A DNA stretch of 64,000 nucleotides from Solitalea canadensis DSM 3403 (lineage in GTDB: Bacteria; Bacteroidota; Bacteroidia; Sphingobacteriales; Sphingobacteriaceae). The notes beneath the pieces are model-generated. The model saw nothing but the letters and a program-made list of their open reading frames with translations. It was not told the origin of the DNA and did no database searches. The stretch lies in the NCBI RefSeq assembly GCF_000242635.2, contig NC_017770.1:3484669-3548668 (forward strand). The letters are read 5' to 3'. A program made the translations under genes and the position numbers. Every line of letters starts with the position of its first letter. The first letter of the stretch is position 1. This document shows positions 2,618-36,807 of this stretch, one piece after another.

Positions 2618-5461
2618 CTAAAGAACAACATTCACAATCCGGCCTTTTACTACAATTACCTTTTTAGGAGTTTTTCCATCCAGGTATTTAGCTACATCGC
2701 TACTTTCTAAAACTGCCTTTTCTACATCTGCTGCTTCCAAGGTTAAAGGAAGATTTAATTTGGTTTTAACCTTCCCATTAATTGAAATAGGATAATCAAA
2801 TGCATCTTCAACCAGGTATTCAGCTTTAAATTCTGGGAAGGACGTATGGATAATTGAACCCGCTTCATTGCCAAGTAGAACCCATAATTCTTCCGTAATA
2901 TGAGGGGCATATGGAGACAAAGCAATTACCAATGGTTCCAGTATGGTCTTTTTATTACACTTTAATGCTGTTAACTCATTAACACAGATCATATAACTAG
3001 ATACCGAGGTATTGAATGAAAAACGCTCAACATCTTCTTGTACTTTTTGAATGATCTTATGCAGTGCTTTCAATTCAGCTTTGGTAGGTTCTTCATTAGA
3101 AACAAAGAAATTTCCCTGTTCATTGTAGAACAAGTTCCAGAATTTACGCAAGAAATTATAAACTCCTGAAATACCGTTAGTGTTCCATGGTTTTGATTGC
3201 TCTAGAGGCCCAAGGAACATCTCATACATACGCAATGTATCAGCACCATATTGATCAATAATATCATCTGGGCTTACAACGTTGTACTTAGATTTCGACA
3301 TTTTCTCCACCTCATGACCGCAGATGTATTTGCCATCCTCTAAGATGAATTCTGCATTAACATAATCAGGAGACAGATTTTTGAATTTATCCAAATCCAG
3401 CACATCGTTAGTAACAATGTTTACATCTACGTGCAACGCTTGCGTATCATAGTCTTTGCGAAGGCCATAAGAAACAAACTTGTTGGTACCGATGATTCTA
3501 TACACAAAGTTCGAACGTCCCTGGATCATCCCCTGATTGATCAGCTTTTTGAAAGGTTCTTCTTCCTTCACATAGCCAAGATCTTTCAATACCTTATTCC
3601 AGAAACGAGAATACAGCAAGTGACCAGTAGCGTGTTCAGAGCCACCAATATAAAGATCTACATCTTTCCAATAATCAATTGCTTCGGTTGATGCAAAAAC
3701 ATTTTCATTTTTTGCATCCATATAGCGATACCAATACCAACTACTTCCGGCCCATCCAGGCATGGTACTGTGTTCGTATTCAAATTCATTTTTATATTTC
3801 CAGTTTGCAGCACGAGCTAAAGGAGGCTCCCCTGTTTCGGTTGGCAAATATTTATCAACGTCAGGTAATACCAACGGTAAATCATTTTCATCGATCAGGT
3901 ATGGTAATCCATTTTTAAAGAAAACCGGAACTGGTTCACCCCAATAACGCTGGCGAGCAAAGATTGCATCGCGCATACGGTAATTAGTTTTTGCCTTTCC
4001 ACTGCCGTCTGCCTCGATCTTTTCAACTAAGGCTTTCATTGCTTCAGCGTAAGTCATTCCGTTGATCATACCTGAGTTCACATATTTACCCTCTTTAGTG
4101 GCATCAGCTGTTTCGTCCAAAATTTGGCTGTCCAAAATCTGAACGATAGGTAAATTGAAATGCTTCGCAAAACGATAATCACGCTCATCGCCCGAGGGAA
4201 CTGCCATTACAGCCCCGGTACCGTATCCGGCCAAAACGTAATCAGCGATCCAAACTTGTACTTTTTCTCCACTTAACGGATTTATAGCATAAGCACCAGT
4301 AAAAGCACCCGAAACTGTTTTTACATCAGCCATACGATCGCGTTCACTTTTCTGCTTGGTTTTAGCGATGTACGCTTCTATATCAGCCTTTTGGCCTGGT
4401 GTCGTAATTTTCTCAACAAGTTCATGCTCCGGAGCCAGTACTAAAAACGTAACACCGTAAACAGTATCTAAACGTGTTGTAAATACTTCAATCTTATCGA
4501 CCCCTGCACTTAAATAAGTCTCAGGATCAACATCATGATGAGCATCTAACTCCATCAAACCATGTTCATTCTCCGGAGCAGACATAAGCTCAAAACGTAA
4601 AAGAGCTCCAACTGATTTGCCAATCCAGTTACGTTGCATTTCACGTACAGGTTCAGGCCAGTCGATCGTATCAAGTCCGTTTAACAAACGTTCAGCATAT
4701 GCGGAAATGCGCATGCTCCACTGTTTCATTTTTTTCTGTTCAACCGGATGACCGCCGCGCTCAGAAAAACCTCCTATTACCTCATCATTAGCCAAAACAG
4801 TTCCCAATGCAGGGCACCAATTTACAACAGATTCAGACAAATAGGTTAAACGGTATTTTAACAACTCTTTTTGTTGTTGTTCCTCACCAAACAACTTCCA
4901 TTCTGCTGCCGTAAAAGAGCGTACATCTTCATCGCAAGCAGCTTTAACATTTCCTGTACCGTGTGCCTCAAACATCGAAACTAACTTACTGATAGGCTCA
5001 GCTTTGTTAGTATCGTTATTATACCAAGCATCGAATAGCTTCATGAAAATCCATTGCGTCCATTTATAATAATCGGCATCACAAGTGCGAAGCTCTCTGC
5101 TCCAATCATATGCAAAACCAATGCGATCTAACTGTCCGCGGTAACGTTTCGTATTCTGATCTGTAGTAATTGCAGGGTGCTGGCCCGTTTGAATTGCATA
5201 TTGCTCGGCAGGCAATCCAAAAGCATCGTACCCCATTGGATGAAGCACATTAAACCCTTTCAGTTTTTTGAAACGTGTAAAGATATCAGAAGCTATATAG
5301 CCCAGTGGGTGTCCAACATGTAATCCTGCTCCTGACGGATATGGGAACATATCCAACACATAATACTTTGGTTTATTTGAGTCGATGTCCACCTTAAAGG
5401 TTTTGTTATCGGCCCAGAACTTTTGCCATTTCTTCTCAATTTCTCTGAAAGAGTATTCCAT
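2618..5461 (-). CDS. leuS: Leucine--tRNA ligase
   Basis: Class Ia aminoacyl-tRNA synthetase, 947 residues, charging tRNA-Leu in the cytoplasm. It shows the HIGH-type motif HVGH at 48-51 within [13 protein letters not shown], the editing (CP1) domain with TTRLDT and AVPSGDERD, the KMSKS loop near 719-723 and an anticodon-binding C-terminal domain. Oddities, compared from memory with the E. coli enzyme: an insert of about 55 residues after residue 150, a second insert just before KMSKS, and no Cys pair where the zinc ribbon after VNWCP normally lies (GFSERGG instead). The editing site has Gly where E. coli has His (GHDxRD there, SGDERD here). These may be normal for the phylum. It is transcribed alone, convergent with the lipoprotein gene. 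Confidence 0.97.
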
Positions 5462-5602: not shown

Positions 5603-5688
5603 AAATATAAGAACTGAAGGGCCCTTACTTTTTAATCACAATTCGTAGATTCTTCTAAACAATCGGTAAGAGGTTGAATAACTTTTAT

Positions 5689-6031
5689 CTATAAATGTAG
5701 AATCCCTAACTTATATCTCGAGATAATTAGTTGCTGTAAACGTTCATTTGTACTATAGTTATTTGAAGAAGACACCCCTTTATTATCATTAATTACCAGC
5801 CATCCATCCGGCTTAAATGCCCAGAATAATTTACCATTGAACTTATTGTCGAATGATTTTATCGGTTTATTAGATGATTTATAATAAATTCTCACGGTAC
5901 TTACAAAATACCATGTACCTATTAGGCGTTTATCAAACTGTTTATCAGCAATTTCATTTTCTTTTTTGCATGCTAATAGGGTTAATGGTATTGAAGCGAG
6001 TAATAAAAACTATATATAATTTCATTTTCAT
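5689..6031 (-). pseudogene. Lipocalin-like lipoprotein interrupted by a one-base frameshift
   Basis: From the ATG at 6031-6029 the frame begins MKMKLYI and then loses sense. Removing one base from the five-A run at 6005-6009 (T5 on the coding strand) restores a perfect lipoprotein signal: MKMKLYIVLLLASIPLTLLAC. It then runs on through KKENEIADKQFDKRLIGTWYF and FKPDGWLVI, features of the small lipocalin-like lipoproteins of Bacteroidota, to the stop at 5689. The restored product is about 113 residues. That is short for the family, and the frame stays open for 18 more codons past the amber stop, so the 3' end may also be damaged. A sequencing error, phase variation at the homopolymer or a true pseudogene are all possible. 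A terminator follows it. Confidence 0.65.
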
Positions 6032-7148: not shown

Positions 7149-7385
7149 ATGAGCACTCCTTTAAAACCAACAGAAAATAAAACCGATAAGAACGTAACGT
7201 TTCTTTTTGGTCGTCAGAATTATATATTAATGCTTGCAGGCCTAGCTGTTATTATACTTGGCTTTGTTTGCATGAGCGGCACAACCGATATTATGAGCAA
7301 CACCAAAATCGTAGTTGCTCCTATTTTGGTTCTGGCAGGATTTGTAATTGAATTTTTCGCGATCTTCAAAAAACCTGCTGAATAA
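7149..7385 (+). CDS. DUF3098 small membrane protein
   Basis: 78 residues: a polar N-terminus, then two membrane segments (about 27-46 and 54-72) joined by a short loop containing GTTDIMSNTK, and a charged end FKKPAE. This is the DUF3098 family, found almost only in Bacteroidota and regularly placed between ftsX and uppP. The position suggests a role in division or cell-wall lipid-carrier metabolism, but no function is established. It lies 77 bases after ftsX and 109 before uppP, with palindromic repeats in both spacers. Confidence 0.85.
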   Translation: MSTPLKPTENKTDKNVTFLFGRQNYILMLAGLAVIILGFVCMSGTTDIMSNTKIVVAPILVLAGFVIEFFAIFKKPAE

Positions 7386-7386
7386 T

Positions 7387-7455
7387 ATAGATCATGGTTC
7401 ATAGATTATAGTTCATAGCTCTTTTATATTCTATGAACCATGATCTATGAACTAT
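7387..7455. repeat. Intergenic gttcatag-word palindrome
   Basis: A perfect 18-bp inverted repeat (7387-7404 with 7431-7448) around a 26-nt centre that itself holds another gttcatag. The 25 bases at 7431-7455 occur again, exactly inverted, at 9170-9194, two genes downstream. It begins two bases after the DUF3098 stop codon. The RNA would form a long hairpin without a T tail, so it is not a standard terminator. Confidence 0.85.
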
Positions 7456-7494
7456 TTGCCCATCACCACATAACCTCCATCCCCTTCCTTACAA

Positions 7495-8292
7495 ATGACC
7501 CTTATTCAAGCTATTATCCTTGCTATCGTTGAAGGATTAACTGAATTCTTACCTGTTTCATCTACCGGACACATGATCATTGCTTCATGGTTGATGAAAG
7601 TTCCGAACGGTGATTTTACTAAATTCTTTACGGTTGGTATTCAATTCGGAACCATACTTTCAGTGGTGGTTTTATATTTCAAACGTTTCTTTCAAACCTT
7701 AGACTTTTATTTCAAGCTATTTGTTGGTTTTATTCCTGCTGTTGTATTTGGAGTTTTATTCTCTCACCAGATTGATGCTTTGCTAGAAAGTGTATTAACG
7801 GTAGGTATTATGCTTTTAGTCGGAGGAGTAATTTTTATTCTTCTTGACAATTGGTTTAAAGCGTCTGAAAACAATCCTGATAAAGAAATTAAATATAATA
7901 ATGCATTTGTTATTGGCTTGTTTCAATGTATTGCCATGATTCCTGGTGTTTCTCGCTCAGCATCGACAATCATTGGTGGTTTAACTCAAAAACTAAACCG
8001 TAAACAAGCTGCTGAATTTTCATTCTTCCTTGCCGTTCCTACTATGTTTGCAGCAACAGCAAAAAAGATGTACGACTTCTATAAAGACGGAGGCATTAAC
8101 CTTAGTGGTGAAGAATGGAAGCTTTTCGGTATTGGAAACCTGGTAGGGTTTATCGTTGCAATCATCGCGATCCGCGCATTTATCGGTTACCTAACAAAAC
8201 ACGGTTTCAAGGTATTCGGTTGGTATCGTATCGTGGTAGGGGCTGTTATCATTATTTTTTATTTCCTTGGGTATAATCTTCAACTGATCTAA
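7495..8292 (+). CDS. uppP: Undecaprenyl-diphosphatase
   Basis: A 265-residue polytopic membrane enzyme of the BacA/UppP family. It dephosphorylates undecaprenyl pyrophosphate so that the carrier lipid can be reused for peptidoglycan and surface-polysaccharide synthesis. The first catalytic motif is [15 protein letters not shown] at 12-26 (Glu13, Glu17 and the SSTGH stretch), and the second is PGVSRSAST near 149-158. Length and the eight or so hydrophobic segments fit the family. The start is the ATG after the palindromic repeat. It would supply the lipid carrier used by the polysaccharide genes at 41-59 kb. Overexpressed members give bacitracin resistance. Confidence 0.97.
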
Positions 8293-8352
8293 GAGAAACT
8301 ACTATTGATTTTTATACTTAAGGCTGTAAAACAGAAACTAATGAATAGTTAT

Positions 8353-8360
8353 TATCTTTG
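8353..8360 (+). promoter_or_regulatory. -7 box of a promoter for truB
   Basis: TATCTTTG is an exact match to the Bacteroidota -7 element. It lies 30 bases before the truB start, giving a transcript start near 8367. The -33 box is weak or absent. It implies that truB-ribF can be expressed independently of uppP. Confidence 0.6.
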
Positions 8361-8390
8361 CAGCCACCGGGAAACGGATAGTGAGAACAG

Positions 8391-9164
8391 ATGACAAATA
8401 TTTCGATCGAACAACAAGAAGAATTTTCAAAGGAAAAAGGACCTGTCTCTAATACCAACAAGGATATGGAAGGTTCTTTTTTACATAATTTTGCCGAAGG
8501 AGAGGTTTTGTTGGTAAACAAACCTTACAAATGGACTTCTTTTGATGTGGTAGGCAAAATCAGAAATGCTTTTAAGCCTGCTAAGATAAAAGTGGGACAT
8601 GCGGGAACTCTTGACCCTTTAGCAAAAGGTTTGTTGATCATCTGTACTGGTAAATTCACCAAAAAAATAGATGACTACCAGGCTCAGGAAAAAGAATATA
8701 CCGGTACATTCGTTTTAGGAGCTACTACACCATCATACGATATGGAAACGGAGGTTGATGTTCGATATGATATCCGACACATTACACCAGCTCATATCCT
8801 TGACACCATACCACATTTTCTGGGAGAAATCGAACAGGTTGCTCCTGCTCATTCGGCCTTAAAAATCAATGGAGAACGTGCTTATGAAAAAGCTCGTCGT
8901 GGAGAAGAAGTTCAGTTAAAATCCAGAAAAGTAACCATCAGTGAATTTGAAATAACCAGAATTGACCTTCCAGAGGTTGATTTCAGAGTGGTTTGTTCAA
9001 AAGGCACTTATATTCGTTCATTAGCCAATGACTTCGGAAAGAAATTACAGAATGGTGCCTATTTATCCGCACTACGCCGCACCCGTATTGGTCAATTCTC
9101 TGTAGACAATTCATGGGAGATCATGGAACTGGTGAATAAGATTAAAAGTCAGAAGGAAATTTAA
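8391..9164 (+). CDS. truB: tRNA pseudouridine(55) synthase
   Basis: 257 residues. It converts U55 in the T-loop of most tRNAs to pseudouridine. The catalytic motif is GHAGTLDPLAKGLL, with the nucleophilic Asp at about residue 75; KINGERAYEKARRGE and CSKGTYIRSLANDFG are the further family blocks. The core begins near residue 37 (GEVLLVNKPYKWTSFDVV), so the N-terminal 36 residues are extra. An internal ATG at 8466 is an alternative start, but the -7 box at 8353-8360 permits the longer form. It lacks the C-terminal PUA domain of longer homologues. The following spacer carries a gttcatag repeat before ribF. Confidence 0.96.
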   Translation: MTNISIEQQEEFSKEKGPVSNTNKDMEGSFLHNFAEGEVLLVNKPYKWTSFDVVGKIRNAFKPAKIKVGHAGTLDPLAKGLLIICTGKFTKKIDDYQAQEKEYTGTFVLGATTPSYDMETEVDVRYDIRHITPAHILDTIPHFLGEIEQVAPAHSALKINGERAYEKARRGEEVQLKSRKVTISEFEITRIDLPEVDFRVVCSKGTYIRSLANDFGKKLQNGAYLSALRRTRIGQFSVDNSWEIMELVNKIKSQKEI

Positions 9165-9169
9165 AGCCT

Positions 9170-9233
9170 ATAGTTCATAGATCATGGTTCATAGCCGTCA
9201 GTTTAGTCCCTATGAACTATGAACCATTAACTA
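9170..9233. repeat. Second gttcatag-word palindrome
   Basis: Bases 9170-9194 are the exact reverse complement of 7431-7455. The right half (9210-9230) holds more gttcatag words in the opposite sense; 9184-9194 pairs perfectly with 9217-9227 around a 22-nt loop. It fills most of the truB-ribF spacer. Confidence 0.85.
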
Positions 9234-9256
9234 TTATCCAAACAAGCAATTAAACA

Positions 9257-10189
9257 ATGAACATATACAGAAGTCTTGAAGAATTTAGAACACTCGATAA
9301 ACCGGTTGTAACACTTGGAACATTTGATGGTGTACATTTTGGGCATCGTAAGATTATTCAACGACTTCTGGAAGTTGCCCACACAATTGAGGGAGAAACG
9401 GTTGTATTAACATTCTTCCCTCACCCTCGCATGATTTTGCATCCGGAGGCCGATCAGCCAAAAATGATCAATACCCTGGATGAAAAAATGGATCTCTTGA
9501 AAAAAGCAGGTGTTCAGCATTTGATCGTCATTCCGTTTACACGTGATTTTTCCAACCTAACTTCGTCTGAATTTATTGAAGATATATTGGTAAAAAAGAT
9601 TGGTACTAAAAAACTGGTGATCGGTTATGACCATCGTTTTGGTAAAGATCGCGAAGGTAGTTTTGAGCATTTAAAAATGTACGGACCTCAATATGGATTT
9701 GATGTGGAAGAGATTCCGGAGCAGGATGTAAATGATGTGGCTGTAAGCTCTACAAAAATAAGAGAGGCACTAATTAAAGGCGATATCGCTACCGCCAACA
9801 AATTCTTGGGTTATAACTTTTGCCTAAGTGGAAAGGTTGTTAAAGGAGATCAAATAGGCAGAACTATCGGGTTTCCTACTGCCAATCTATATGTTGAAGA
9901 GGGCTATAAGTTAGTTCCTGCAGATGGAATTTATGCTGTTAAAGTTCATATTGAAGATGACATCTTTGGAGGAATGCTTTACATTGGTCACCGACCAACC
10001 ATAAACGGCATGACTCACAACATAGAAGTTAATATTTTTGACTTCGATACAGATATTTACGGAGAAGTGATCTCGTTAGAGTTCCTTGAATACCTACGAG
10101 ATGATGAGAAATTTAACGGATTAGATGCATTAACCACACAATTAAAACTTGATGAGATTAATGCCAGGAAGATTTTGCAACAGATTTGA
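9257..10189 (+). CDS. ribF: Bifunctional riboflavin kinase / FAD synthetase
   Basis: 310 residues, two domains. The N-terminal nucleotidyltransferase domain (FMN to FAD) shows GTFDGVHFGHRK at 22-33 (HxGH type), IGYDHRFG near 122 and the conserved SSTKIREAL near 171. The C-terminal riboflavin-kinase domain (riboflavin to FMN) begins near 190 and carries GDQIGRTIGFPTANL, the metal/ATP motif. Length matches the family. It is last in the ftsX-to-ribF cluster and faces a minus-strand lipoprotein gene only 11 bases away. I see no FMN riboswitch upstream; the spacer is taken up by the word repeat. Confidence 0.97.
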   Translation: MNIYRSLEEFRTLDKPVVTLGTFDGVHFGHRKIIQRLLEVAHTIEGETVVLTFFPHPRMILHPEADQPKMINTLDEKMDLLKKAGVQHLIVIPFTRDFSNLTSSEFIEDILVKKIGTKKLVIGYDHRFGKDREGSFEHLKMYGPQYGFDVEEIPEQDVNDVAVSSTKIREALIKGDIATANKFLGYNFCLSGKVVKGDQIGRTIGFPTANLYVEEGYKLVPADGIYAVKVHIEDDIFGGMLYIGHRPTINGMTHNIEVNIFDFDTDIYGEVISLEFLEYLRDDEKFNGLDALTTQLKLDEINARKILQQI

Positions 10190-17269: not shown

Positions 17270-17304
17270 AAAGGCGTCCGGGTTTAACCGGGACGCCTTT
17301 GTTT
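17270..17304 (+). terminator. Rho-independent terminator between the sigma factor and the facing methyltransferase
   Basis: A stem of about 12 bp (from 17270-17282 with 17288-17300, one mismatch) over a tttaa loop, followed by gtttt. It sits between convergent genes and may also end the minus-strand transcript. Confidence 0.85.
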
Positions 17305-26262: not shown

Positions 26263-27519
26263 ATGAAGAAGGCCTTTCTCACAACTCTGCTTATTTGCAT
26301 CAACTTTATTTCTTTTGCTTCATCCGTGCTTATTCCTATGGACGAAGGACAGAAAAATCATTTAAAAGCGTACGGTATAGCTTATTGGGTATTAAGCAAG
26401 CAATTAACTGTTGACTGGCTGCTGAATTATAGAGGAGGAAGCTTCCTGATTCAGAATAATGAACAAATCCAAAATGAATGCCGGATAAGGGGTGTTTCCT
26501 TTGAGGTGATTCCTGATGTACAGGTTACAGCTATTCTAAAAGAAATAAGTGATCCTGAATCAAATACTGACGTGGTTAAGCTGGAGAAAATGCCCAAAAT
26601 TGCCGTTTATTCTCCAAAGAATAAATTACCGTGGGACGATGCTGTAACACTGGTTCTTACTTATGCGGAGATTCCATATACAACTTTATACGACGAAGAA
26701 ATTCTTAAAGGAGAATTACCTAAATATGATTGGCTGCATATGCACCATGAGGATTTTACAGGCCAATATGGTCGTTTTTATGCACAATTTAAAATGACAG
26801 CCTGGTATCAGCAGGATGTTGCATTACAGGAACGTACAGCTCAGTCATTGGGCTATAAAAAAGTTTCTGAGATGAAATTAGCTGTTGCTAAAACCATTCG
26901 CGACTTTACTGCCGGTGGAGGTTTCTTATTCTCTATGTGTTCAGGAACTGACAGCTTTGATATCGCATTAGCTGCAGAAGGTATTGATATTTGTGAATCA
27001 ATGTTTGACGGGGATTCAGCCGACCCCAATGCTAATTCTAAACTTGATTATAACAAAACATTTGCCTTTCGGAATTTCAGACTTGATATGAATCCGTATA
27101 ATTATGAATTTGCCGATATAGATGTACCTCCATTAAGGGCAGTTGACGAAGCGAATGATTTGTTTACACTTTTTGAATTTTCAGCAAAATGGGATGTGGT
27201 TCCAACTATGCTTACTCAAAATCATACCCGTATTATTAAGGGTTTTATGGGCCAAACAACTGCGTTTCGCAAGTCGGTTATAAAACCTGAAATTCTGATT
27301 ATGGGTGAAAATAAGGGTATGAACGAAGCTCGTTATATTCATGGTGAATATGGACAAGGCACGTGGACATTTTACGGTGGGCACGATCCTGAAGATTATC
27401 GTCACCAGGTTGGTGACCCTCCTACTGACCTTAATCTTTACCCCAATTCACCAGGTTATCGGTTAATACTAAACAATGTGCTATTTCCAGCTGCTAAGAA
27501 AAAGAAGCAGAAAACGTGA
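26263..27519 (+). CDS. Secreted GATase-like protein (family often labelled asparagine synthetase B)
   Basis: 418 residues from ATG 26263, which opens a signal peptide (KKAFLTTLLICINFISFASS). Bacteroidota homologues are often labelled asparagine synthetase B, but none of the AsnB motifs (N-terminal Cys2 amidotransferase, PP-loop SGGxDS) is present. Instead the fold looks like a class I glutamine-amidotransferase or DJ-1 type: a short strand and PKIAVYSPKNKLPWDDAVTLVL, then a nucleophile-elbow-like GGGFLFSMCSGTDSFDIAL near 224-242 and late conserved His (YGGHDPEDYRHQ). It ends in a very basic KKKKQKT. A TAAATTTG box ends only three bases before the ATG, so a leaderless transcript is possible. 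Function is unknown. Confidence 0.75.
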   Translation: MKKAFLTTLLICINFISFASSVLIPMDEGQKNHLKAYGIAYWVLSKQLTVDWLLNYRGGSFLIQNNEQIQNECRIRGVSFEVIPDVQVTAILKEISDPESNTDVVKLEKMPKIAVYSPKNKLPWDDAVTLVLTYAEIPYTTLYDEEILKGELPKYDWLHMHHEDFTGQYGRFYAQFKMTAWYQQDVALQERTAQSLGYKKVSEMKLAVAKTIRDFTAGGGFLFSMCSGTDSFDIALAAEGIDICESMFDGDSADPNANSKLDYNKTFAFRNFRLDMNPYNYEFADIDVPPLRAVDEANDLFTLFEFSAKWDVVPTMLTQNHTRIIKGFMGQTTAFRKSVIKPEILIMGENKGMNEARYIHGEYGQGTWTFYGGHDPEDYRHQVGDPPTDLNLYPNSPGYRLILNNVLFPAAKKKKQKT

Positions 27520-27660
27520 TGTGAGATTTGATGTGAGATGTGATATTGTCTTATTACTCATATACAGGAAAGGGTGTTCAGAAGATTATTCTGAACACCC
27601 TTTGTTTAATTGATTCGTTAAAGTTTCTTACATCTCACATCCCATATCTCATATCTATCT
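27520..27660. repeat. Intergenic gatgtgagat-word repeat flanking a terminator
   Basis: gatgtgagat occurs at 27518-27527 and again at 27530-27539. The 11 bases 27530-27540 recur exactly inverted at 27631-27641, followed by catatctcatatc variants up to 27660. Between the arms lies a strong hairpin terminator. The whole spacer is therefore one large nested palindrome between convergent genes. Confidence 0.8.
27569..27607 (+). terminator. Rho-independent terminator between convergent genes
   Basis: A 13-bp perfect stem (27569-27581 with 27591-27603), a 9-nt loop and then gttt. It serves the GATase-like gene and may also end the porin transcript from the other side. Confidence 0.88.
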
Positions 27661-36760: not shown

Positions 36761-36807
36761 TAATGAGAAAAGCCGTCCCGGTTGAACCGGGACGGCTTTT
36801 CTCATTA
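36761..36807 (+). terminator. Terminator of pruA with a 21-bp perfect stem
   Basis: 36761-36781 pairs without mismatch to 36787-36807 around a ttgaa loop. The stem is GC-rich in the middle and A/T at the base, where the T stretch is built into the stem itself. Confidence 0.9.

Follow-up and report, generated by a model that had tools for sequence, protein, structure and literature searches.

Why should two spacers of one gene row carry the same 25-nt block in opposite orientation? The window analysed here is a stretch of 64,000 nucleotides from the 5.2-Mb chromosome of Solitalea canadensis (G000). In its DUF3098-uppP-truB-ribF cluster, positions 7431-7455 and 9170-9194 were exact reverse complements (25/25 complementary) with 1714 nt between them, as an earlier note on this DNA had reported. 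Each spacer also formed its own palindrome, in agreement with that note. In the first spacer, arms of 24 nt (7387-7410 and 7425-7448) were 96% complementary and the longest perfect run was 19 bp, rather than the 18 bp given earlier; in the second, arms of 18 nt (9177-9194 and 9217-9234) were 89% complementary, with the longest perfect run at the 11 bp already described. The word GTTCATAG occurred eight times in the 64-kb window, every time inside these two spacers; shuffles contained 2.0 copies on average, and 1 of 100 shuffles reached eight. The gene names of the cluster held by Pfam (DUF3098, BacA for UppP, TruB and RibF), and the right arms of both spacers had no T run after them, so the earlier remark on a lacking terminator tail was correct. 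Both blocks were period-7 arrays (Table 1). The arms had a predicted folding energy of about -32 kcal/mol in element 1 and -19.4 kcal/mol in element 2.

Table 1. Features of the DUF3098-uppP-truB-ribF cluster, in positions of the window.
Feature	Positions	Strand	Description
DUF3098 gene	7149..7385	+	Stop codon at 7383-7385; assigned by Pfam; upstream neighbour of element 1
Element 1, left arm	7387..7418	-	YATNRWC array on the minus strand; begins 1 nt past the TAA of the DUF3098 gene; found by period 7 and array score
Element 1, right arm	7425..7455	+	Plus-strand heptad array; contains the block 7431-7455; pairs with the left arm
uppP (Pfam BacA)	7495..8292	+	Sits between elements 1 and 2
truB	8391..9164	+	Assigned by Pfam; upstream neighbour of element 2
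Element 2, left arm	9170..9194	-	Second block of the earlier note; 5 nt past the truB TAA; period 7
Element 2, right arm	9210..9240	+	Plus-strand heptad array; stops 16 nt short of the ribF start codon
ribF	9257..10189	+	Assigned by Pfam; downstream neighbour of element 2

Judged by sequence comparison, the two blocks are arms from a family of heptad-built hairpins, dispersed through the genome at gene ends and present also in related soil bacteria. The elements follow the plan (GWYNATR)n - loop - (YATNRWC)n, and only with this order of strands. The exact 25-mer had four copies in the S. canadensis genome, two of them outside the cluster, and with up to 3 mismatches it was found at 52 places, compared with 0 for the reversed control. 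The earlier note had considered that the block might be an IS end or a mobile repeat in many unrelated contexts. Many unrelated places were indeed found; an IS end was not seen in this search, and no whole unit was copied together with its loop. Copies of an IS or MITE were tentatively rejected as an identity, no shared unit having been seen among the elements. A three-heptad pattern with at most 1 mismatch matched 299 places in S. canadensis (G000) compared with 2 reversed-control places, and 117 (G001), 68 and 9 places in three other Solitalea genomes compared with 0.

The word is degenerate: 836 YATNRWC heptads were counted in arrays of three Solitalea species, the commonest endings being GAAC, GATC, GGAC and GGTC in S. 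canadensis and GGAC in S. agri and S. longa. Most arrays mixed several words under one grammar, and GGTC words, readable on both strands, were assigned to the strand with the better score. The median arm of 51 simple elements was 32 nt and the median loop 16 nt. An array scan at a threshold of 14 gave 38 arrays and 25 in the reversed control; higher thresholds were hence used later, and these gave 118 arrays compared with 12 among the sites examined. Of the lags 5-14 counted in intergenic DNA, lag 7 alone stood out (7 runs compared with 0 or 1) in a sample of evenly spaced 400 kb of the S. canadensis genome plus the window, whose own arrays were below threshold. Two of these seven runs belonged to a second dialect with the same plan, WAACYCG, which was found at 79 places in the S. 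canadensis genome and at 0 in the control. The dispersed copies shared no stem consensus or unit and had the heptad grammar alone in common. Non-orthologous elements that were compared had no unit or loop in common beyond 20 nt, the best loop matches having 90% identity over 20 nt (between two elements lying in the same stretch) and 94% over 17 nt. The dialects of the two arms were correlated (rho 0.77, n = 47), three species being pooled, so that species differences may contribute.

The exact inverted match had suggested earlier that the two spacers could pair with each other across 1.7 kb, enclosing uppP and truB. The sister species did not bear this out. The closest named relatives by UppP were S. 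agri and S. longa (90% amino-acid identity), whose aligned DNA blocks were about 73-80% like those of S. canadensis. Both spacers contained heptad arrays in these species also, in different words. The longest inverted match between the spacers was just 13 nt in S. agri and 9 nt in S. longa, and the distance between them was longer (about 3.07 and 3.05 kb, respectively); in S. agri, an extra gene between uppP and truB was an MFS transporter by Pfam. Within S. canadensis (G000), 23 of 1176 pairs of elements had a word of at least 25 nt in common and so matched equally long or longer, and each window spacer already self-pairs at short range. Long-range pairing, which is not conserved in S. agri or S. 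longa, was therefore rejected, and we give it next to no credence. The 25-mer is a by-product of shared heptad vocabulary, the two spacers being identical over 25 nt because both are arrays of one vocabulary used throughout the genome.

Polarity and siting were examined in at least 114 clusters chosen by pattern hits, namely 49 from S. canadensis (G000), 39 from S. agri and 26 from S. longa, those of S. canadensis and S. agri being the ones among the matches listed. One repeated region (L238 = L032) was dropped; earlier totals with the duplicate were 116 clusters, 69 of them two-strand. All 68 two-strand clusters of the three Solitalea species started with a minus array and ended with a plus array, and composite clusters had strand alternations inside this outer order. 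The same order was observed in 9/9 cases for the WAACYCG dialect and in 14/14 at the nrdA site of Mucilaginibacter; nine other two-strand clusters of Mucilaginibacter were kept out of the polarity count, seven of them having been picked for their listed minus-plus pair. With ORFs called simply as the longest, 111 clusters were intergenic (75 between co-directional, 28 between convergent and 8 between divergent genes) and three more were within a called ORF. Elements were rare between divergent genes, and element-free pairs in the S. canadensis data were similar in number for the two classes (56 convergent, 70 divergent). The median distance from element to stop codon was 2 nt, and it was at most 10 nt in 98 of 131 cases. 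When the duplicate locus (L238/L032) was included, TAG was the stop codon in 59 of 113 element-abutting genes compared with 97 of 489 other genes of the loci (p = 2.5e-11). Thirty-nine of the 113 abutting genes overlapped their element, and in several convergent gaps the element filled the space from stop to stop. The next gene started within 40 nt of the element at 40 of the 75 co-directional sites. This siting by transcription direction suggests a role at the RNA level.

The three-heptad pattern without mismatch was found in 86 of 201 genomes of the order Sphingobacteriales and in 9 of 15 sampled genera, at up to 232 places per genome; the reversed control matched in 37 of the 201, at up to 39 places (G031). 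Fourteen of 33 named genomes matched, including all five of Mucilaginibacter, the one Pelobium and 8 of 19 Pedobacter, the last with few places and often a single uniform run. Among these named genomes, the pattern was absent from Flavobacterium (0/3), Runella (0/3) and Taibaiella (0/2).

Among the loci examined, 10 of 49 S. canadensis clusters had a counterpart in S. agri and 5 of 49 in S. longa. From alignments read by eye, 14 of 26 distinct S. longa clusters were common to S. agri. When the orthologous spacers of four S. canadensis sites were mapped by their flanks, none of the eight readable ones (site 3 in every congener and site 2 in G002 being unreadable) carried a YATNRWC array, showing that turnover is high. 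One of the eight (S. longa, site 1) had a pair of the other dialect (CG), and the S. longa spacer at site 2 had, by eye, a T-tailed hairpin where S. canadensis has a heptad hairpin. No clean empty site was found when orthologous spacers were looked up. Some elements persist at orthologous spacers, and others have been gained or lost between species.

Orthologous elements changed words, with A, T and C of the heptad varying less than Y, N, R and W. Exact pattern hits in the target being left out, per-position change in Solitalea was.233 at Y,.128 at A,.115 at T,.301 at N,.246 at R,.197 at W and.130 at C; a first heptad-phase count was biased, most sites on both sides having been found by the pattern. 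In the window spacers (four comparisons, with spacers found by UppP similarity) the values were.237,.085,.096,.389,.431,.278 and.027, respectively. Orthologue pairs were hand-picked from alignments, 22 for the count of pair changes and 19 for the phase counts. The 3' end of nrdA (ribonucleotide reductase by Pfam) was followed in Mucilaginibacter in the best 30 of 120 genomes, 29 of which had a readable tail; arrays were present in 15 of these 29 loci, and both arms in 14. Change in the orthologous arms was 0.33-0.45 at Y, N, R and W and 0.02-0.04 at A, T and C, counted over all pairs in both directions (non-independent) with arms delimited by the grammar. The controlled counts in Solitalea had the same trend with a smaller contrast. 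Such a pattern would arise from heptad selection and from slippage between units alike. In paired columns, 106 of 136 single-sided changes broke the pair, and 19 of 31 double changes kept it; covariation by pair was weak, and we do not claim it as proof of structure, because single changes break pairs freely. An element's own arms paired better than swapped arms only in S. canadensis (p = 0.005); the corresponding values were 0.14 in S. agri, 0.25 in S. longa and 0.07 at the nrdA site.

Other repeated words were observed at several gene ends. At positions 5610-5800, locus L182 (S. canadensis) has a hairpin of another word, GATTACACYGATT, and the orthologous spacer in L222 (S. agri, 3050-3190) carries YATNRWC heptads. 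At the nrdA 3' ends of Mucilaginibacter, loci L304, L309, L318, L324 and L326 carry hairpins of a further repeated word, GAGACGCAA...TTGCGTCTC, and words similar to AAGTCCGGAAAGTC are present in L306, L314 and L320. Several repeat vocabularies seem to replace one another at gene ends.

All 49 simple elements that were folded had z < -2 against dinucleotide shuffles, with a median z of -5.3. Among spacers of 40-250 nt, intrinsic terminators were found in 7 of 21 convergent spacers with an element compared with 43 of 60 without, and in 4 of 54 co-directional spacers with an element compared with 79 of 256 without (11 of the 75 element-bearing spacers of both kinds in three Solitalea species), a deficit that reached significance in S. 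canadensis but in neither S. agri nor S. longa taken singly, and that has to be read with the small room which an element leaves for a second hairpin. Of the 15 nrdA loci with arrays, 13 had a T-tailed stem, spelled in heptad words, along with the arms.

We tentatively favour, at a little under an even chance, the reading that these are resident, REP-like repeats at gene ends and that their stems, once transcribed, protect the mRNA of the upstream gene or set its limit. An element would be transcribed together with the upstream gene and would fold into a long stem on the 3' side of its message. Stable stems stall exonucleases; the stem would block 3' exonucleases and so set or protect the mRNA 3' end, and transcription could still continue into the next gene, as in the DUF3098-uppP-truB-ribF row. 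From the fixed polarity and the grammar without a shared unit, we infer that a factor or copying process with sequence specificity acts on the heptads. Several results weigh against such 3' stems: pairing is not strictly kept, turnover is high and the terminator deficit is significant in S. canadensis only. Slippage between units, instead of selection, could keep the grammar, and 3' ends would likewise be the preferred place of any insertion that is tolerated. It is also quite possible, if less probable, that the repeat is selfish or purely mutational, with a copying process that lays down or lengthens heptads, harmless at gene ends, by slippage by 7, by an enzyme, or by a fold-back in which one arm serves as the template for the other. 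The high turnover between species, the freely broken pairs and the elements found between divergent genes (8) or within called ORFs (3) would fit this, as would nested arms built of two word types, an almost uniform run of about 13 CATGAAC units forming one arm (L184, 2972-3080, S. canadensis) and a heptad element of S. agri present in about 6 copies at a tandem spacing of about 100 nt (L210, 2985-3700). However, simple slippage would give uniform arrays and no fixed polarity, whereas most arrays are of mixed words within one grammar, and 14 of the 26 distinct S. longa clusters are common to S. agri. The two readings put forward in the earlier note, a structure for RNA stability or processing and the copying of short words by a mutation process, still lead. 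An unlikely alternative is a self-renewing heptad language at the gene ends of these Sphingobacteriaceae in which words change, while the YATNRWC grammar and the outward polarity would be kept by a dedicated heptad-reading factor or by telomerase-like writing onto both 3' ends of the hairpin; a switch from the AT to the CG dialect was seen at one orthologous spacer.

That the stems are transcription terminators, ending transcription on both strands, is improbable. The deficit of intrinsic terminators at element-bearing ends, the orthologous spacer with a heptad hairpin in S. canadensis and a T-tailed one in S. longa, and the T-tailed heptad stems at nrdA would all agree with termination. However, T-tailed stems occur at Mucilaginibacter nrdA and not at the window elements; under a permissive scan every one of the 29 nrdA loci scored as having a T-tailed stem, with arrays or not, and in 2 of the 15 array-bearing loci the arms were beyond a separate terminator. 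Further, the short distance to the next start (at most 40 nt at 40 of 75 co-directional sites) makes complete termination unlikely there, and full termination is likewise unlikely at element 2, with the ribF start 16 nt past it. It is very improbable that the heptads are sites read in double-stranded or cruciform DNA by a chromosomal or repair protein. Base choice is restricted at Y, R and W (a pyrimidine, a purine and A/T, respectively), A, T and C are fixed and so is polarity, which would fit such sites; yet the reading has no candidate protein, and siting by transcription direction points to RNA. We would put still less weight on REP elements moved by a Y1 (RAYT-type) transposase. Siting and TAG supply are as in REPs, so far as these are described in the accessible part of PMC3733652; the part of PMC6006769 available mentions atypical structures flanking Y1 genes of Bacteroidetes subclass 2.6; and GTAG was found at 16 of 185 outer element edges (8.6%) compared with a background of 3.8%. 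CGTC, the other tetranucleotide of REP feet, was found at 0 of the 185, however, and the elements lack a GTAG or CGTC foot. Heptad arrays were present at 0 of 32 Y1 loci (up to 1.5 kb on each side, Y1 subclasses pooled) and at 3 reversed-control loci, the Solitalea genome G001 has 117 places with the pattern yet no Y1_Tnp match, and non-orthologous elements share no unit or loop beyond 20 nt. A RAYT/REP identity is disfavoured, Y1 genes and elements being unlinked.

Several known repeat classes resemble the heptad elements in part. Cyanobacterial STRRs are short heptanucleotide tandem repeats between genes, in direct copies; intergenic tandem heptamers are common to both, and the heptad elements differ in their inverted, polarised pairs, which to our knowledge are not known for STRRs. 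Rickettsia palindromic elements have one consensus per family and are notable for in-frame insertion, some being tolerated inside genes; they are palindromic repeats of similar size, and just 3 of 114 heptad clusters were in a called ORF. Intrinsic terminators are likewise stem-loops past a stop codon, whereas the window elements have no T-tail and have period-7 arms of about 32 nt. The TAACTGA heptamer repeats of Beggiatoaceae, Cyanobacteria and five Bacteroidetes are, in the part of PMC4679880 that is accessible, a single exact word repeated directly, for the most part immediately upstream of start codons. Intergenic period-7 arrays, Bacteroidetes hosts and an AACT core are shared with them, whereas the heptad elements use a degenerate word in inverted pairs that follow stop codons closely. 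Their 7-nt tandem unit is that of a heptamer direct repeat; direct copies of one exact word are not the rule among the arrays, and some uniform runs exist. REP/BIME palindromes sit in co-directional and convergent spacers, beside or over gene ends, often give a TAG stop and have been proposed to have mRNA roles, according to the available part of PMC3733652. The heptad elements are alike in 3'-end siting and TAG supply, going by that same part of PMC3733652, and differ in that their arms are arrays of a grammar instead of a stem consensus, with no GTAG/CGTC foot, unrelated loops and no Y1 gene nearby. The accessible part of PMC6006769, which mentions the structures at subclass 2.6 Y1 genes, does not describe heptads. 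Neither a GTAG foot, a linked Y1 transposase nor a common loop defined the family, nor, in the Solitalea elements that were read, did a T-tail. We provisionally file the heptad elements, by their sequence features, as a variant of intergenic palindromic repeats outside the REP, TAACTGA and Y1-flanking families.

A repeat that keeps a grammar and not a sequence is easily missed by ordinary repeat finders. Rfam gave no family match, its four miRNA matches being all far under gathering scores, and no description of such elements was found in the literature searched, which covered few subscription journals. Within one genome, heptad elements nevertheless lie at dozens of gene ends, and models of REP, MITE or plain slippage type do not explain how polarity can be fixed when no unit is shared. 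For genes that lack a visible intrinsic terminator, the elements would offer a way to study how these bacteria form the 3' ends of their mRNAs; they would do the same for the origin of short-word repeats.

Other repeats were observed in the window and in related loci. The two Y1 transposase genes of S. canadensis (L131, about 860-1340; L132, about 1970-2210) have different short palindromes on their flanks, ACCGTTGGTT...AACCAACGG and CTCCGGAGC-like, which may be true REPs. One hairpin, whose stem is GCCGTCCCGGT or a near variant, recurred in unrelated spacers at 17270-17300 and 36761-36807 of the window, and at 8179-8213 of L115 and 846-876 of L127. Two convergent spacers of the window also carried short-period arrays around a hairpin. 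At 2418-2449 and 2584-2621, period-7 arrays (TTAGCTA, TAATAGC) flank a 14-bp perfect stem and are possibly another heptad dialect; at 27516-27544 and 27632-27656, period-7/12 arrays (GATGTGA, ATCTCAT) flank a 15-bp hairpin. Heptads of yet another word occurred inside a gene. The ribF genes of Pedobacter (L110, L094 and L049; about 7250-7500 of each locus) have an extra in-frame stretch, which in L110 consists of 7-nt words (AAAGTGG/GAAAGTT type) that give a 7-residue protein repeat, with inverse CAACYTT words further on.
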